Shown one piece after another: positions 13,545 to 17,816 of a DNA stretch of 64,000 nt; position 1 is the stretch's first letter, and each line of letters starts with the position of its first letter. Both the position numbers and the translations under genes were made by a program. The stretch covers positions 1,984,001 to 2,048,000 of the forward strand of contig CP159990.1 in assembly GCA_040702975.1 (NCBI GenBank), in the 5' to 3' direction. This stretch comes from Roseburia hominis (lineage in GTDB: Bacteria > Bacillota > Clostridia > Lachnospirales > Lachnospiraceae). The notes under the pieces are model-generated. The model made no database searches. It was given only the letters and a program-made list of their open reading frames with translations, and had not been told where the DNA came from.

Positions 13545-13615
13545 ATGAAGAAACGGATCGCCGGATTTCTGGCGCTCGCTATGCTGTGTTTTGTTACTGC
13601 TTGTGGTTCACAGGA
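13545..13615 (+). pseudogene. flavodoxin lipoprotein gene, 5' part, split by a transposon
   Basis: The ATG at 13545 starts a lipoprotein signal peptide (MKKRIAGFLALAMLCFVTAC, lipobox VTAC with Cys20). After codons for GSQ the Mu-like transposon begins at 13616. The rest of the gene resumes at 17178 beyond the 5-bp duplication CAGGA. Joining the halves gives a continuous 234-residue flavodoxin lipoprotein. As it stands, translation runs into the transposon end and stops at 13664 after 39 residues. Confidence 0.9.
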
Positions 13616-13658
13616 TGTTGGACGGCAAATTGAAGGAGACATAAACGGCGAATTATTT
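13616..13658. repeat. left transposon end with two binding-site-like repeats
   Basis: TGT at 13616-13618 is followed by GGCAAATTGAAG (13624-13635) and GGCGAATTATTT (13647-13658), 23 bp apart. The same motif family appears inverted at the other end. Repeats of this sort are the usual transposase-binding sites of Tn7/Tn5053-like elements. Confidence 0.75.
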
Positions 13659-13815
13659 TTCTGATTTTTATCCCGTTGACTGCGCAGTGCAACCTGCAAA
13701 TGCATTCTTCTATCAAAAACGCGGCACGCTGTTGGCAACAGGGAGACTGCTCTGAAATACAAAGAGCTGTGGAATCCATTGTGGGATCCACAGCCCATGT
13801 AAAATTCGTAATCTT

Positions 13816-14130
13816 TCAAATATTATCAGCCAGGGCAGGCAGATACACCAGGGCGGTGGCCACGGTTACTGCGTCTACCTTCCGCATCAGACTGCGGAGC
13901 CTTTCTTCGTTCCAGAAGATATCGGAGAAATCAGATAATTCGCACCCGATATCATGGTTGGGGATGCACAGGTAATTCCCATATTTATGCCGCCCGGCAA
14001 GGATGTGGAAGTAAGTCCCTCTCCCGCTGATTTCTGCTTCGTACTGGCCGGGAAGTTTCCGCAGCAGCGTAAGTTTTCCAGTCCAGCATTCTTTCCGTGA
14101 ACCGTGCCTGAGAATACAGGTGTATTCCAT
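13816..14130 (-). CDS. DUF6618-like small transposon protein
   Basis: A 104-residue protein starting MEYTCILRHGSRKECWTGKL. GGAGGGG lies just upstream of its ATG, which rules out the longer frame. It appears to be a beta-rich domain (ISGRGTYFHILAGRHKYGNY) with no catalytic motif that I recognise. It is the last gene of the minus-strand transposon operon, 19 bases after the ATPase gene. It resembles the DUF6618 proteins that accompany such transposases; its role is unknown. Confidence 0.65.
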   Translation of the reverse strand: MEYTCILRHGSRKECWTGKLTLLRKLPGQYEAEISGRGTYFHILAGRHKYGNYLCIPNHDIGCELSDFSDIFWNEERLRSLMRKVDAVTVATALVYLPALADNI

Positions 14131-14149
14131 AAACAGTACCCCTCCTTCC

Positions 14150-14956
14150 TTAGCCGAGGTTCTGGCTGCTGACGGAAGCCAGGATGACCTCTGTATCAAT
14201 GACCTTCTTTTCCATCTGTGCCCCAAGTGTCAGCGCGTTGGTCATCAGGTTATCAACAAGCCTGGGACTGCCCTGGGAGTGGCTGTGGACAGCACACAGG
14301 GCTGCATGGTCAATAATGGAGGAAGCTCCGCCAGCACAGGCGATCTTGTGGAGGACATACTGCCCGACTTCCGAATCGGAGAGCCCGGAGAAGTTATAGT
14401 GGACGGTAACACGCTGCCGCAGTGCCTCATGGACGGGCTTTTTGAGCGTATTGTTCAGATGGGGCTCCCCACAGAGTATGAGAGTAAAGCAGTTGAGGGA
14501 ATCATAGCCGTAATTCATGAGCATCTTGATATCCTCCAGAATGCCGGTAGAGAGATACTGTGCCTCATCGATGGCAAGGAGGAGGGGCTGCTTCTTTTCA
14601 CGGTAGAGATAGAGGACCTGCTCCTGGATCGCCCGGAACATGCCGGGTTTGCCGCCTTTGGGTTCTATACCAAGCGTAGAACAGAACTGGCGGTAGAACT
14701 CCATGACACTGACGGTAGAGAGGCAGAGATACTCCATGTGGTAAAGATTCGGGTTCAGGCTTTTGGCAAAACAGCGCAGTGCGAAGGACTTGCCCATGCC
14801 GGGGCGTGCGGTGAACAGCCCGATGCCCCTGGTATCCTTGAGGTAGTCCAGCCGTGAGAGCATCTCCGAGATGTCTTTCGAGAGGAAACGGTCCTTCTCA
14901 GAGGCCATCTGTTTGTCAAAAGGGTTGAAGGCCAGCCCATAGTAAGTGCGGAACAT
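14150..14956 (-). CDS. AAA+ ATPase of the transposon (ExeA/TniB/MuB-like)
   Basis: A 268-residue ATPase starting MFRTYYGLAFNPFDKQM, the N-terminal pattern of ExeA/TniB proteins. Walker A is FTARPGMGKSF (about 48-58) and Walker B is LLLAIDEAQYL (D130, E131). A sensor region CGEPHLNNTL and an arginine in QGSPRLVDNL follow. In related elements such ATPases bind target DNA and activate the transposase. Its ATG overlaps the transposase stop codon as ATGA, with AGGAGGTG upstream, so the two are translationally coupled. Confidence 0.88.
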   Translation of the reverse strand: MFRTYYGLAFNPFDKQMASEKDRFLSKDISEMLSRLDYLKDTRGIGLFTARPGMGKSFALRCFAKSLNPNLYHMEYLCLSTVSVMEFYRQFCSTLGIEPKGGKPGMFRAIQEQVLYLYREKKQPLLLAIDEAQYLSTGILEDIKMLMNYGYDSLNCFTLILCGEPHLNNTLKKPVHEALRQRVTVHYNFSGLSDSEVGQYVLHKIACAGGASSIIDHAALCAVHSHSQGSPRLVDNLMTNALTLGAQMEKKVIDTEVILASVSSQNLG

Positions 14957-16224
14957 CAGCAGGCACCTCCTATCTTTGAATAATCAATAGAAGGGGTGTT
15001 GTTACGTTTTGTCCTGCAGTTTTCATTTTTATCTGTCGGCCGGATGGGATAATGCTCCCCCTCATAAAGGATGTAGGCAGAGGACATATCGTCGGGAAGG
15101 AAGCGGATCTCAACTTTGGATGAGATGAACTGCATGGGGACGTCATAGGAGACCTTGTCGATGGAGACAGTGGAATCCTTATTCACCTTCCTGTTGATGC
15201 GGTTTAAGAAACATTCCTCCAGCCATTCCCTGGACTTTGGCATCTGTATGGCACAGCGCGTCTTCTGGTAACGTTCCATGGGGGTACAGCCGATGCCGGA
15301 ATGCATGGAAGTATTGTAGGTGCGGATATAGTCCCGCAGGAGGGAATTGAACTGTGCCAGGGACGTGATGGAATCCATGTCCAGCGTATAAAGCCAGGTC
15401 TCCTTGAATGTCCTGAACTGGCGTTCGATCTTGGCCTTGCTGGCGCCGTCCCGCACTTTTGTATGAAGGAGGACCGTGCCGATGGAGCCGCAGATCAGGG
15501 AGAGCTGTTCATTTGAGTAGCTGCAGCCATTGTCGACATAGAGTTTCGCCGGAATGCCGTGGGAGGCAACTGCGTTTTTTAAAACTTTCTGGAAGTTATA
15601 GGCGTTATCGTTATAAAAAAGGCCGCCGCCCACCAGGAAACGCGAGTGGTCATCAATGATCATAATGCAGTAAACCCTCCTGCGCTGCCCGCCTTCCGTG
15701 ATATAAGGGAGGTAACAGGTATCCGCCTGCCACATTTTCCCAAAGGCATCTTCCTCAAAAGCTTTCCTGTCCCTCATAGATGGATTGCGCGCCGACTTCA
15801 GGTCATGCTTTTTCACGAAGCGCTGGACGGCGCAGACGCTGACAGAGGCGGGGATAAAAGCTTCCTCCACAAGATGGCGGTGGATCTGGGTTGCGTTTAA
15901 GCGTGGGAAAGCCTCTTTCAGCCGGTAGATCTCTTCAATGGCCGTGTCCGGCAAGGCGCGTGTGGAGCCTTTGTCGGAACGTTCCCGGGGCATGAGCGCG
16001 TCAATGCCGCCATTCTGGTAAAGAGAGGCCCACTTGCTGAGGGTCTTGGGGCTGTACTGGAATACAGAGCCGTCAGGCAGGGTGAGGGGTTTTTCCGTTA
16101 CCCGCTGGTAATAGGCGTTTCTGGACGCATCCGGATAAAGGCCATGGATGACCGGTGCAATGAGTGCGAGCCGGAACTGTGCCATAGCAGATGCGTCTGA
16201 AAAGTTTTTGGTGTTGTAATGCAT
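14956..16224 (-). CDS. DDE transposase of the Mu/Tn5053-like transposon
   Basis: A 422-residue transposase. N-terminal helix-turn-helix regions (LSKWASLYQNGGIDALMPRE, about 62-81) are followed by an integrase core with D168 (MWQADTCYLPYI), D231 (KLYVDNGCSYSN) and E267 (SKAKIERQFRTFK). A Mu-transposase-type C-terminal beta domain follows (VSIDKVSYDVPMQF). The start has AAAGGAGG upstream. It is the catalytic gene of the element and is coupled to the ATPase gene. The frame is intact. Confidence 0.92.
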   Translation of the reverse strand: MHYNTKNFSDASAMAQFRLALIAPVIHGLYPDASRNAYYQRVTEKPLTLPDGSVFQYSPKTLSKWASLYQNGGIDALMPRERSDKGSTRALPDTAIEEIYRLKEAFPRLNATQIHRHLVEEAFIPASVSVCAVQRFVKKHDLKSARNPSMRDRKAFEEDAFGKMWQADTCYLPYITEGGQRRRVYCIMIIDDHSRFLVGGGLFYNDNAYNFQKVLKNAVASHGIPAKLYVDNGCSYSNEQLSLICGSIGTVLLHTKVRDGASKAKIERQFRTFKETWLYTLDMDSITSLAQFNSLLRDYIRTYNTSMHSGIGCTPMERYQKTRCAIQMPKSREWLEECFLNRINRKVNKDSTVSIDKVSYDVPMQFISSKVEIRFLPDDMSSAYILYEGEHYPIRPTDKNENCRTKRNNTPSIDYSKIGGAC

Positions 16225-16313
16225 AAAAAAATCCTCCTTTACTGTTTTCTATCAGCATATAGGAAGAACAGCCTGGAGACCATCCCTGTGTTATGTGGTG
16301 TCTGGGAAACGGT

Positions 16314-16907
16314 TCAGGGGCCGAACTGCTGTTGGCAGTAAGCCGCCGGATTTCTGTGGGACTGGAGGAAGGAGACAGAGAAGCGGCGGACAAAACCGGA
16401 TGCAAAGCCGGAATAAGCGGGCATCCGAAAAAGGCCTTTCAGGAAAGAGAGGCCGGAGGACTCCCTGGAAGAGAGAAGGCCCAGCCACTCTTCCTTCTGC
16501 TTTTTGAACAGGGAAAGCCAATGGTAGAGCTGGTTTTGGTTAATACAGAAGCGTGCGCAGATTTTTTCTACGGAAGCAAGCCGAAGGAAATATTCCGCCA
16601 GGACACGGAGGATAAAGAAAAGGCCGTAGGAGGAATAAGGGATGATGAAATCCGGAAGGATGGCATGGGTATGGCCGCAGGAACAGACAAGGCGCAGGAT
16701 ACAGAGGCTGTGCCAGACAGGCTTTCCACCAACGAAATCAGCCAGGGAACGTTCATAATAGGCATGGACGGAACAAGCTCCCTTTGCCCCACAACAGGGG
16801 CAGGTCTGTAGTTCAGGCCGGAAACCGTCCATGAAGGAGTCAAAAAGCTTTTTTGATGAAGATTTTATACGAATTAACTTGCAAAACAGGGAATTATTTC
16901 TTATCAT
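16314..16907 (-). CDS. DUF6431-like zinc-finger protein of the transposon
   Basis: About 197 residues if started at MIRNNSLFCKL; a start at 17030 would be longer, and neither has a good ribosome binding site. A zinc-ribbon-like CPCCG...C motif and CSCGHTHAILPDFI lie in the first 90 residues. A helix-turn-helix-like segment follows (VEKICARFCINQNQLYHWLS). DUF6431 proteins accompany this transposase type. By analogy with the zinc-ribbon plus helix-turn-helix build of TniQ, a role in target selection is possible but unproven. Confidence 0.65.
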   Translation of the reverse strand: MIRNNSLFCKLIRIKSSSKKLFDSFMDGFRPELQTCPCCGAKGACSVHAYYERSLADFVGGKPVWHSLCILRLVCSCGHTHAILPDFIIPYSSYGLFFILRVLAEYFLRLASVEKICARFCINQNQLYHWLSLFKKQKEEWLGLLSSRESSGLSFLKGLFRMPAYSGFASGFVRRFSVSFLQSHRNPAAYCQQQFGP

Positions 16908-17121
16908 AATAAATGTCAGTGATGCCAAAGCCTCATGAGTGGGACATGATCCCGTATATGGCAGGTATGCTGGTGTATGAGAGAAAGAACGAACTGTAGG
17001 AGGGGCTGTTCTTTCTCTTTTTTGTTCCATAAAAACTATACTGGAATAGAGCAGGATGGTCAAGATAAAAGTGTGCTGTTTTTTACTGCACGCTGACATA
17101 GATAATAATTAAATGTTGAGA

Positions 17122-17177
17122 TTTTAATTTGCTGTATTTGTGCAGGAGACAGGAACTTTAATTTGCTGGCTGACACA
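17122..17177. repeat. right transposon end with two binding-site-like repeats
   Basis: Read inward from the end at 17177, TGTGTCAGCC is followed by AGCAAATTAAAG (plus-strand 17156-17167) and AGCAAATTAAAA (17122-17133). Both match the repeats at the left end in inverted orientation. Confidence 0.75.
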
Positions 17178-17816
17178 CAGGAATCCAGCGATATTTCAAT
17201 ACCGGAAACATATTTATCAGAAGATGCGACAGAAACAGAGTCTGCTGACAGTGCAGATGGGCAGCAAGTGTCAGAACATAAGAAAATTCTGATTGCCTAT
17301 TTTACATGGGTAGAAAATGCGGCGGATACTTCAGAAGTTGATGCCACCACATCAGCCAGCGTACAGCTCCCAGGAAATGTTGCGCAGATGGCAGCGTGGA
17401 TTCATCAGGAGGTTGGAGGGGAATTATTCTCTATCCGGGTAGAAGAACCGTATCCGGCGGATTATGATGCGTGTCTTGACCGGGCGGCGGATGAAAAGGC
17501 GGAAAATGCAAGGCCAAAGCTGGTGGAAAAGGTTTCAGACCTTTCAGAGTATGACGTGGTGTTTTTAGGGTATCCAAACTGGTGGTACAGCGCACCGATG
17601 GCTGTTTTTTCTTTCTTGGAGGAAAATGACCTTAGCGGCAAGAAGGTTGTGCTATTTTGCTCCCACGGGACAGGAGGGCTTGCATCCAGCGTGAAAGATA
17701 TTTCTGCTGTGCTTCCAGACAGTCAGATCGAAAGCAATGTGTTGGGTGTGTACCGTGATGATATATCGCAGTCACAGGAAACGATACAAAACTGGCTGGA
17801 AGAAATCGGCTATTGA
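17178..17816 (+). pseudogene. flavodoxin lipoprotein gene, 3' part, beyond the transposon
   Basis: This is the body of the gene that starts at 13545. It resumes with QESSDISIPETYLSED, a Glu/Ser-rich linker, then a flavodoxin domain (ILIAYFTWVENAADTSEVDA, VFLGYPNWWYSAPMA, VVLFCSHGTGGLASS) and ends with ETIQNWLEEIGY. The frame is otherwise undamaged. Without a start or signal peptide it is probably silent, although a TTG at 17163 inside the transposon end could start a cytoplasmic form. Confidence 0.9.

Follow-up and report, generated by a model that had tools for sequence, protein, structure and literature searches.

We analyzed a 64,000-nucleotide stretch of the Roseburia hominis chromosome (contig CP159990.1, positions 1,984,001 to 2,048,000; hereafter the window, whose numbering is used throughout) and focused on a transposon-like element that interrupts a flavodoxin gene. 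The element occupies 13616..17175 (3560 bp), as determined by comparing 11 copies, and lies between two 7-bp target-site duplications, CACAGGA, at 13609..13615 and 17176..17182. All four of its genes are on the minus strand and follow one another leftward from the right end. They encode a DUF6431 zinc-ribbon/helix-turn-helix (HTH) protein (16314..16907; 197 aa from a conserved MIR start, in an open frame that continues to 17099), a DDE transposase (14956..16224; 422 aa), a MuB/TnsC-like AAA+ ATPase (14150..14956; 268 aa), and a DUF6618 protein (13816..14130; PF20323; about 104 aa, with the start placed by homologues beginning MEYTC or MNYTC). The transposase stop and the ATPase start overlap by one base (TGATG). 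An initial annotation, made from the sequence alone, had proposed the same four-gene set.

Copies, boundaries and genes of the element

The host genome, a single contig of 4.26 Mb, contains 11 copies of the element with 99.94-100% identity over 3560-3561 bp (3560 bp in ten copies and 3561 bp in one). Matching duplications flank every copy, with a length of 7 bp in eight (L011, L012, L014, L015, L016, L018, L020 and L021, of which L018 is the window copy) and 6 bp in three (L013, L017 and L019). The transposase is intact in ten copies and split by an indel in L014; L017 carries one substitution. Because 11 near-identical copies each lie between matching duplications, the element is real and not a chance arrangement, and its recent multiplication within the host genome is evident at the sequence level. 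The termini read TGTTGGACGG... at one end and ...GGCTGACA at the other. A 100-base probe of each end matched exactly 11 chromosomal sites, all belonging to these copies, and these probes revealed no solo-end derivatives in the host genome. The smallest gap between copies is 11.3 kb, and an equally small gap occurred in 25% of random sets, so the spacing speaks neither for nor against target immunity.

The copy comparison corrected the boundaries. The initial annotation had placed the right end at 17177 and reported a 5-bp duplication, CAGGA. The ten other copies place this end at 17175, and none of the 11 has a 5-bp duplication; the earlier values arose because the CA of the duplication was read as part of the element. 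The comparison of ends and empty sites that had been suggested at the time yielded ends common to all copies, together with duplications of 6-7 bp instead of 5. The gene restored by excision is unaffected by the shift, since the element plus one duplication comprises the same 3567 bases. As predicted, the empty site has an open frame of 234 codons from the ATG of MKKRIAG (248 from a GTG), with a Flavodoxin_4 match on its 3' part (E 2.1e-23).

The transposase matched the Pfam families rve, Mu-transpos_C and HTH_32, and its residues D168, D231 and E267 were invariant in 14 of 14 aligned proteins. Its profile best matched TnsB in the PDB (8rdu and 7svw, which we take to come from a CRISPR-associated transposon; E 2.9e-24), followed by the IS5376 transposase (E 2.9e-15). 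The best named model was NCBIfam IS481 at 179.3 bits, under its cut-off of 224 bits, and we rejected a filing as single-gene IS481 on this score. For the ATPase, AAA_22 scored above its cut-off and TIGR03015 under it, and no IstB model was listed among the Pfam and NCBIfam matches. The best PDB match of the ATPase profile was 8xvb, named 'ATP-dependent target DNA activator B' and presumably MuB (E 8.1e-10). The DUF6618 protein was modelled with a predicted local distance difference test score (pLDDT) of 94.3, and Foldseek returned no match with E ≤ 0.001. In agreement with the initial annotation, no TniQ or resolvase was found: among the element's genes scanned, there was no match to TniQ, TnsA or TnsD, and none to a resolvase among the four genes, shorter open reading frames (ORFs) lying outside that scan.

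The ratio of nonsynonymous to synonymous substitution rates (dN/dS) was estimated against four relatives with 88-92% transposase identity. With dS at 0.9-2.1, the values are rough: 0.04-0.07 for the transposase and the ATPase, 0.15-0.22 for DUF6431, and 0.07-0.15 for DUF6618. As general figures, equally rough, we give 0.15-0.26 for DUF6431 and about 0.05 for the transposase. Since the ratio was low throughout, all four genes appear, within this roughness, to be maintained as proteins by purifying selection.

Ends, target sites and leader

The upstream, DUF6431-side end (17125..17175, minus strand) begins with TGT and carries CAAATTA at 17159-17165 and 17125-17131, a spacing of 34. The downstream, DUF6618-side end (13616..13655, plus strand) also begins with TGT and carries CAAATTG at 13626-13632 and CGAATTA at 13649-13655, a spacing of 23. 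The TGT...ACA termini and the two GCAAATT-type sites per end were therefore as first described. In the main branch of relatives (mostly Bacillota), the ends share TGT...ACA and a CAAATTA-type site at position 11, with a second site often about 34 bp inward at the DUF6431 end and 23-24 bp inward at the other. We compared 47 distinct end pairs in which each end scored 9 or more against the matrix. In 30 of the 47 upstream ends, a further CAAATTA-like site exceeded the shuffled 95% level (spacing 34 in 28 of these), as one did in 32 of the 47 downstream ends (spacing 23-24 in 31). Among 26 distinct elements whose ends are backed by duplications of 5 bp or more, 14 upstream ends have a strict motif at 44-46, and 12 downstream ends have one at 34-35. 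Because the matrix was built from ends partly picked by their duplications, the position-11 site is circular, whereas the inner sites are not. Within the main branch, the pattern extends to elements whose transposases are only about 30% identical.

Of the 11 empty sites, ten fall within open frames of at least 59 codons, and nine of those frames exceed 200 codons. By eye, the targets include the flavodoxin gene, an FMN-reductase-like frame, an IS256-like transposase and a ParA-like frame, with no common theme. In 43 target sites we found a weak A/T preference at the centre of the 7-bp sites and no consensus. DUF6431 does not make the element site-specific, and this speaks against a site selector of the Tn7 type.

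Upstream of the operon, a promoter-like site (TTGACC-17-TATAGT; 17035..17063, minus strand) is followed by a leader hairpin with an 11-bp stem (16980..17018, minus strand) that lies before the DUF6431 gene. Both are also found in L121, L124, L132 and L139. The promoter-like site alone means little, since the scan gave 3 such sites and shuffles gave 3.7. The leader as a whole folds no better than shuffles (z -1.28; 20 of 200 shuffles as good). The hairpin has a C-rich loop on the gene strand. On the plus strand, a T run comes directly after it, so that it resembles a terminator that would act against antisense transcripts.

Relatives and the transposase tree

A profile scan of genome contigs yielded 540 related loci, of which we used the best 80, with transposase identity down to 31%. 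DUF6431 was present in 78 of these, the ATPase in 77, both in 75, and DUF6618 in 27. In the two DUF6431-free loci, the contig starts inside the transposase (L155) or an ORF that looks IS110-like by eye separates the transposase from the contig edge (L157). The order DUF6431 - DDE transposase - MuB/TnsC-like ATPase is kept in relatives from Bacillota, Pseudomonadota and Actinomycetota. The expectation of a Mu/Tn5053-like mobile system that has been little described and has no TniQ or resolvase was supported, with DUF6431 as one of its core parts. DUF6618, at 27 of 80 loci, is optional, and we rejected it as a core part. Four relatives that bear duplications (L085, L151, L181 and L200) have no ORF of at least 35 codons behind the ATPase, so the small protein, once suggested to control the ATPase or the ends, is not generally required. 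Some distant relatives have other small proteins, not called DUF6618, in the fourth-gene position (L202:6056-6313, L223:5550-5810 and L214:5593-5829).

In a separate set of 29 loci from phylum-level transposase matches (L053-L081), DUF6431 was found in 21. The remaining loci lie at contig edges (L053, L065 and L076, the L065 contig holding a remnant), hold short transposase pieces (L066, L072, L079 and L080), or are preceded by an ORF that looks IS110-like by eye (L057). Plasmids also carry the gene set. The gene that precedes the transposase is annotated DUF6431 on plasmids of Acidithiobacillus, Cupriavidus, Paraburkholderia, Streptomyces, Geobacillus and Metabacillus; the Acidithiobacillus ATPase is absent from the gene table and was detected by the ATPase profile. 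On plasmids of Pandoraea, Rhodococcus (E 1e-4), Thermobacillus, Sporosarcina and Undibacterium (E 4e-4), this gene was matched by our DUF6431 profile. In Lachnospiraceae, DUF6431 matched in 30 of 200 genomes, in 28 above the cut-off. In Bacillota, 52 of 149 genomes had a transposase match, a count that includes other IS481-like proteins. The transposase profile also matched a 686-codon gene on an Undibacterium plasmid (L219:3375-5435) that is annotated 'ATP-binding protein', which points to a possible fusion of transposase and ATPase.

An end pair was called at 68 loci, 57 of them with flanks (L109 and L146 are one locus counted twice). The duplications measured 6 bp at 16 loci, 7 bp at 12, 5 bp at three, 8 bp at two, 4 bp at one and 3 bp at two, and 21 loci had none. 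When flanks of different loci were paired as a control, duplications of at least 5 bp occurred in 8 of 3192 pairs. All three 5-bp duplications can be read as 6 bp if the terminal A is shared. L126, L127, L178, L193, L222 and others combine good end scores with no duplication, and L135 and L140 carry inserts in or beside transposase genes that look IS66-type by eye. Eubacterium plexicaudatum ASF492 (NZ_AQFT02000001.1) holds many copies with 86-92% transposase identity (L123, L124, L126, L127, L129-L131, L133, L135, L136, L140, and L173 at 36%) and offers a good natural set for insertion-site studies.

We placed 71 transposases in a quick, midpoint-rooted tree with some long branches and uneven composition. 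The 62 DUF6431-linked transposases and three without DUF6431 (L057, L220 and L233) formed one group with a support of 88. Beside it stood three TniQ-linked TnsB sequences and three resolvase-linked ones (L216-L218), the latter forming their own branch (support 99) in which no DUF6431 was called. L216-L218 would be Tn552-like, judging from their resolvase, transposase and ATPase, in a tree that holds no named Tn552. Inside the DUF6431 group, two transposase-ATPase loci have upstream ORFs without the zinc cysteines (L233:1744-2268 and L220:2546-2857), and by eye that of L233 may be a cysteine-poor DUF6431 relative.

The host chromosome also has a Tn7-like gene run (G000:C1:704500-710500; L224:2000-7984), comprising a 618-aa transposase-profile match, a 436-aa protein in the TnsC position, a 491-aa TniQ (PF06527, E 4.1e-21; PDB match TnsD) and a 437-aa protein. 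Given this TniQ, a true TniQ system coexists with DUF6431 elements in the host.

The role of DUF6431 and comparison with known systems

The DUF6431 protein matched PF20020 (E 3.2e-10 from the conserved start). C36, C39 and C75 were present in 41 of 41 members and C77 in 40. Its structural model (mean pLDDT 86.7, predicted template modelling score 0.83) shows zinc-ribbon strands followed by helices. As a zinc-ribbon/HTH protein it is probably a DNA-binding subunit, and we read it as an obligatory part of the element, acting as either a target adaptor or an end/transpososome factor. The initial annotation had considered it a possible TniQ substitute. As a function this is plausible; it gains no support from homology, and the 11 targets are unrelated. 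No PDB match in the fold search was significant (none with E ≤ 0.001), TniQ was not among the 50 fold matches listed of 605, nor among the listed Pfam families (25 of 82) matched by DUF6431 members, and the profile comparison, with a shallow set of four TniQ proteins, gave a probability of 0.4%. Homology to TniQ was therefore rejected on the fold, Pfam and profile comparisons.

The best overall explanation, with a probability of about 0.6, is that the element is an insertion-sequence-like transposon and belongs to a distinct family of three-gene elements within the Mu/Tn7/Tn5053/Tn552 superfamily. The identity of the element and its family appears close to certain. Mobility, asymmetric ends with two sites each, 6-7 bp duplications, broad targets and a three-gene core that is nearly always kept are established by sequence comparison. 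In the proposed mechanism, the transposase would bind the paired CAAATTA sites, bring the ends together and join them to target DNA, which an oligomer of the ATPase would hold, at cuts staggered by 6-7 bp. Strand transfer would be replicative, and host recombination would resolve the cointegrates; such movement is likely, because neither TnsA nor a resolvase was found. DUF6618 would be an optional modulator. The ATPase partners IstB, MuB and TnsC are described as capturing target DNA and activating the transposase (PMC10122671, PMC11208146). DUF6431 would work at this target/ATPase step; in favour are its constant company with the ATPase, its zinc ribbon and HTH, and its quick change while the end sites stay. 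We propose this role tentatively, at slightly under even odds, as a loading or adaptor factor and functional stand-in for TniQ, not a strict site selector. The broader proposal is more tentative again: it envisages a pan-bacterial family with a dedicated adaptor, a compact zinc-ribbon/HTH protein not related to TniQ, that lets a MuB/TnsC-type ATPase engage target DNA.

Several observations weigh against these interpretations. No fold or profile links DUF6431 to TniQ. At the sequence level it shows weak similarity to the DNA-binding portions of transposases (HTH_Tnp_1 and Zn_ribbon_ISL3), which fits end binding equally. The target range is broad, and the nearly random targets, apart from the weakly A/T-rich centre, show no visible selection. 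Dynein, ORC1, Cdc6 and RuvB chains rank between 8xvb and VchTnsC (E 0.006) for the ATPase profile. Of the 21 loci that lack a duplication, a few have doubtful end calls and many have clear ones; possible causes are deletions, recombination between copies and intramolecular transposition. The matrix search found no end pair of the main-branch type in six Pseudomonadota/Actinomycetota relatives (L203, L204 and L211-L214), and in a second Bacillota branch (L093, L095, L096, L097 and L215) the end pairs were doubtful or absent.

We weighed other explanations. DUF6431 might be an end-binding or transpososome-assembly factor resembling a split-off transposase DNA-binding module, such as the zinc ribbon plus HTH of ISL3 or the TnpA of IS66. 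Its gene adjoins the upstream end, HTH_Tnp_1 matched 10 and Zn_ribbon_ISL3 8 of the 41 members, IS66 TnpA matched weakly (E 0.0026), and the sole transposase high in the fold list was ISCth4 (rank 2, E 0.48). However, the transposase has HTH matches of its own, and DUF6431 diverges much faster than the transposase (54% against 85% identity for L134) while the end motif is kept, which suggests that DUF6431 does not read the motif; we regard end binding as rather unlikely. A role confined to regulating expression, by binding the promoter or leader hairpin outside the transposition machinery, would suit a gene that comes first in its operon and follows a promoter-like site and a hairpin, both of which are seen again in four relatives. 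It is considerably less probable, as DUF6431 is retained in 78 of 80 loci, some with as little as 31% transposase identity, unlike a typical optional regulator.

Two further explanations concern the origin of the element. Tn552 has two transposition genes, p480 and p271, and 6-bp target repeats (PMC3276174), so the element might be of Tn552 type with its resolvase lost; the separate branch of L216-L218, presumed Tn552-like, beside the DUF6431 group, without DUF6431 and under a midpoint root, points away from this, and we consider it improbable. Membership in Tn5053/Tn402 with a degenerate TniQ would account for a third gene beside a DDE transposase and an ATPase and for TnsB as the best PDB match of the transposase. 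The 0.4% profile probability, the 6-7 bp instead of 5-bp duplications, the lack of a resolvase match and the position of the TniQ-linked TnsB sequences outside the group leave it hardly any probability.

TnsC/MuB-type ATPases and their target loading have a central place in transposition and in tools for programmable insertion. The element described here is small, recently active and apparently not site-specific. Having three core genes, defined ends and 11 native copies, it makes a simple test system and could reveal how transposons of this type find targets without the usual targeting protein. If true, the adaptor role for DUF6431 would be an independent targeting solution in elements of only about 3 kb. 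It would also assign a function to DUF6431 and correct the annotation of relatives, some of which are filed as IS481 or hypothetical proteins.

We read the DUF6431 element as a distinct branch among elements of the Mu/Tn7/Tn552 kind, of which the literature searched has hardly any description. That search covered few subscription journals and met DUF6431 once, in an annotation table of PMC12323340, and DUF6618 not at all. Titles and abstract beginnings contained no description of such a system; ISfinder and TnCentral lay outside the search, so absence from print is not established. In a survey of Tn7 target selectors (PMC10293859), the terms 'DUF', 'zinc ribbon' and 'lack TniQ' did not occur. 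The window element has the gene order, TGT...ACA termini, two CAAATTA-type sites and 6-7 bp duplication by which we propose to delimit the three-gene DUF6431 family.

Tn552 and the B3-type transposable phages resemble the element in pairing a DDE transposase with an ATPase-type partner, and we know of no TniQ in either. They make 6-bp duplications (PMC3276174, PMC8705779) and have subterminal repeat arrays (PMC8649781); 10-bp repeats beside some Tn552 copies are also described (PMC3276174). Unlike the window element, with its DUF6431 gene in a fixed place and no resolvase match, Tn552 carries a resolvase and cargo. Against its 6-bp duplication, the copies in the host genome have 6 bp in 3 of 11 and 7 bp in 8 of 11, and the relatives have 6 bp in 16 of 57 and 7 bp in 12 of 57. 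The DUF6431 group is separate from L216-L218 (support 88-99) in our one quick tree.

Tn5053/Tn402 elements encode TniA, TniB, TniQ and TniR. They share with the DUF6431 element a three-protein core with a DDE transposase and an AAA+ ATPase, and repeats inside both ends, and differ in their TniQ and resolvase. Tn7-like elements are similar in that the transposase profile matches TnsB best, the ATPase reaches TnsC weakly, and the end sites form arrays (PMC8649781). They differ in TnsA and TnsD/TniQ, of which we found none among the genes scanned, and our targets are dispersed. Tn7 and all elements related to it are said to duplicate 5 bp of target (PMC11406308), compared with 6-7 bp here. IS21 (IstA/IstB) is likewise compact, with a DDE transposase, an AAA+ ATPase and multiple end repeats (PMC10122671), and the IS5376 transposase was the second-best kind of PDB match; the DUF6431 element differs in its third gene and in an ATPase without an IstB model. 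Finally, IS481 is a single-gene family. It provides the best named transposase model and the annotation of some relatives, whereas the DUF6431 element scores below the IS481 cut-off and carries an ATPase and DUF6431 in addition to its transposase.

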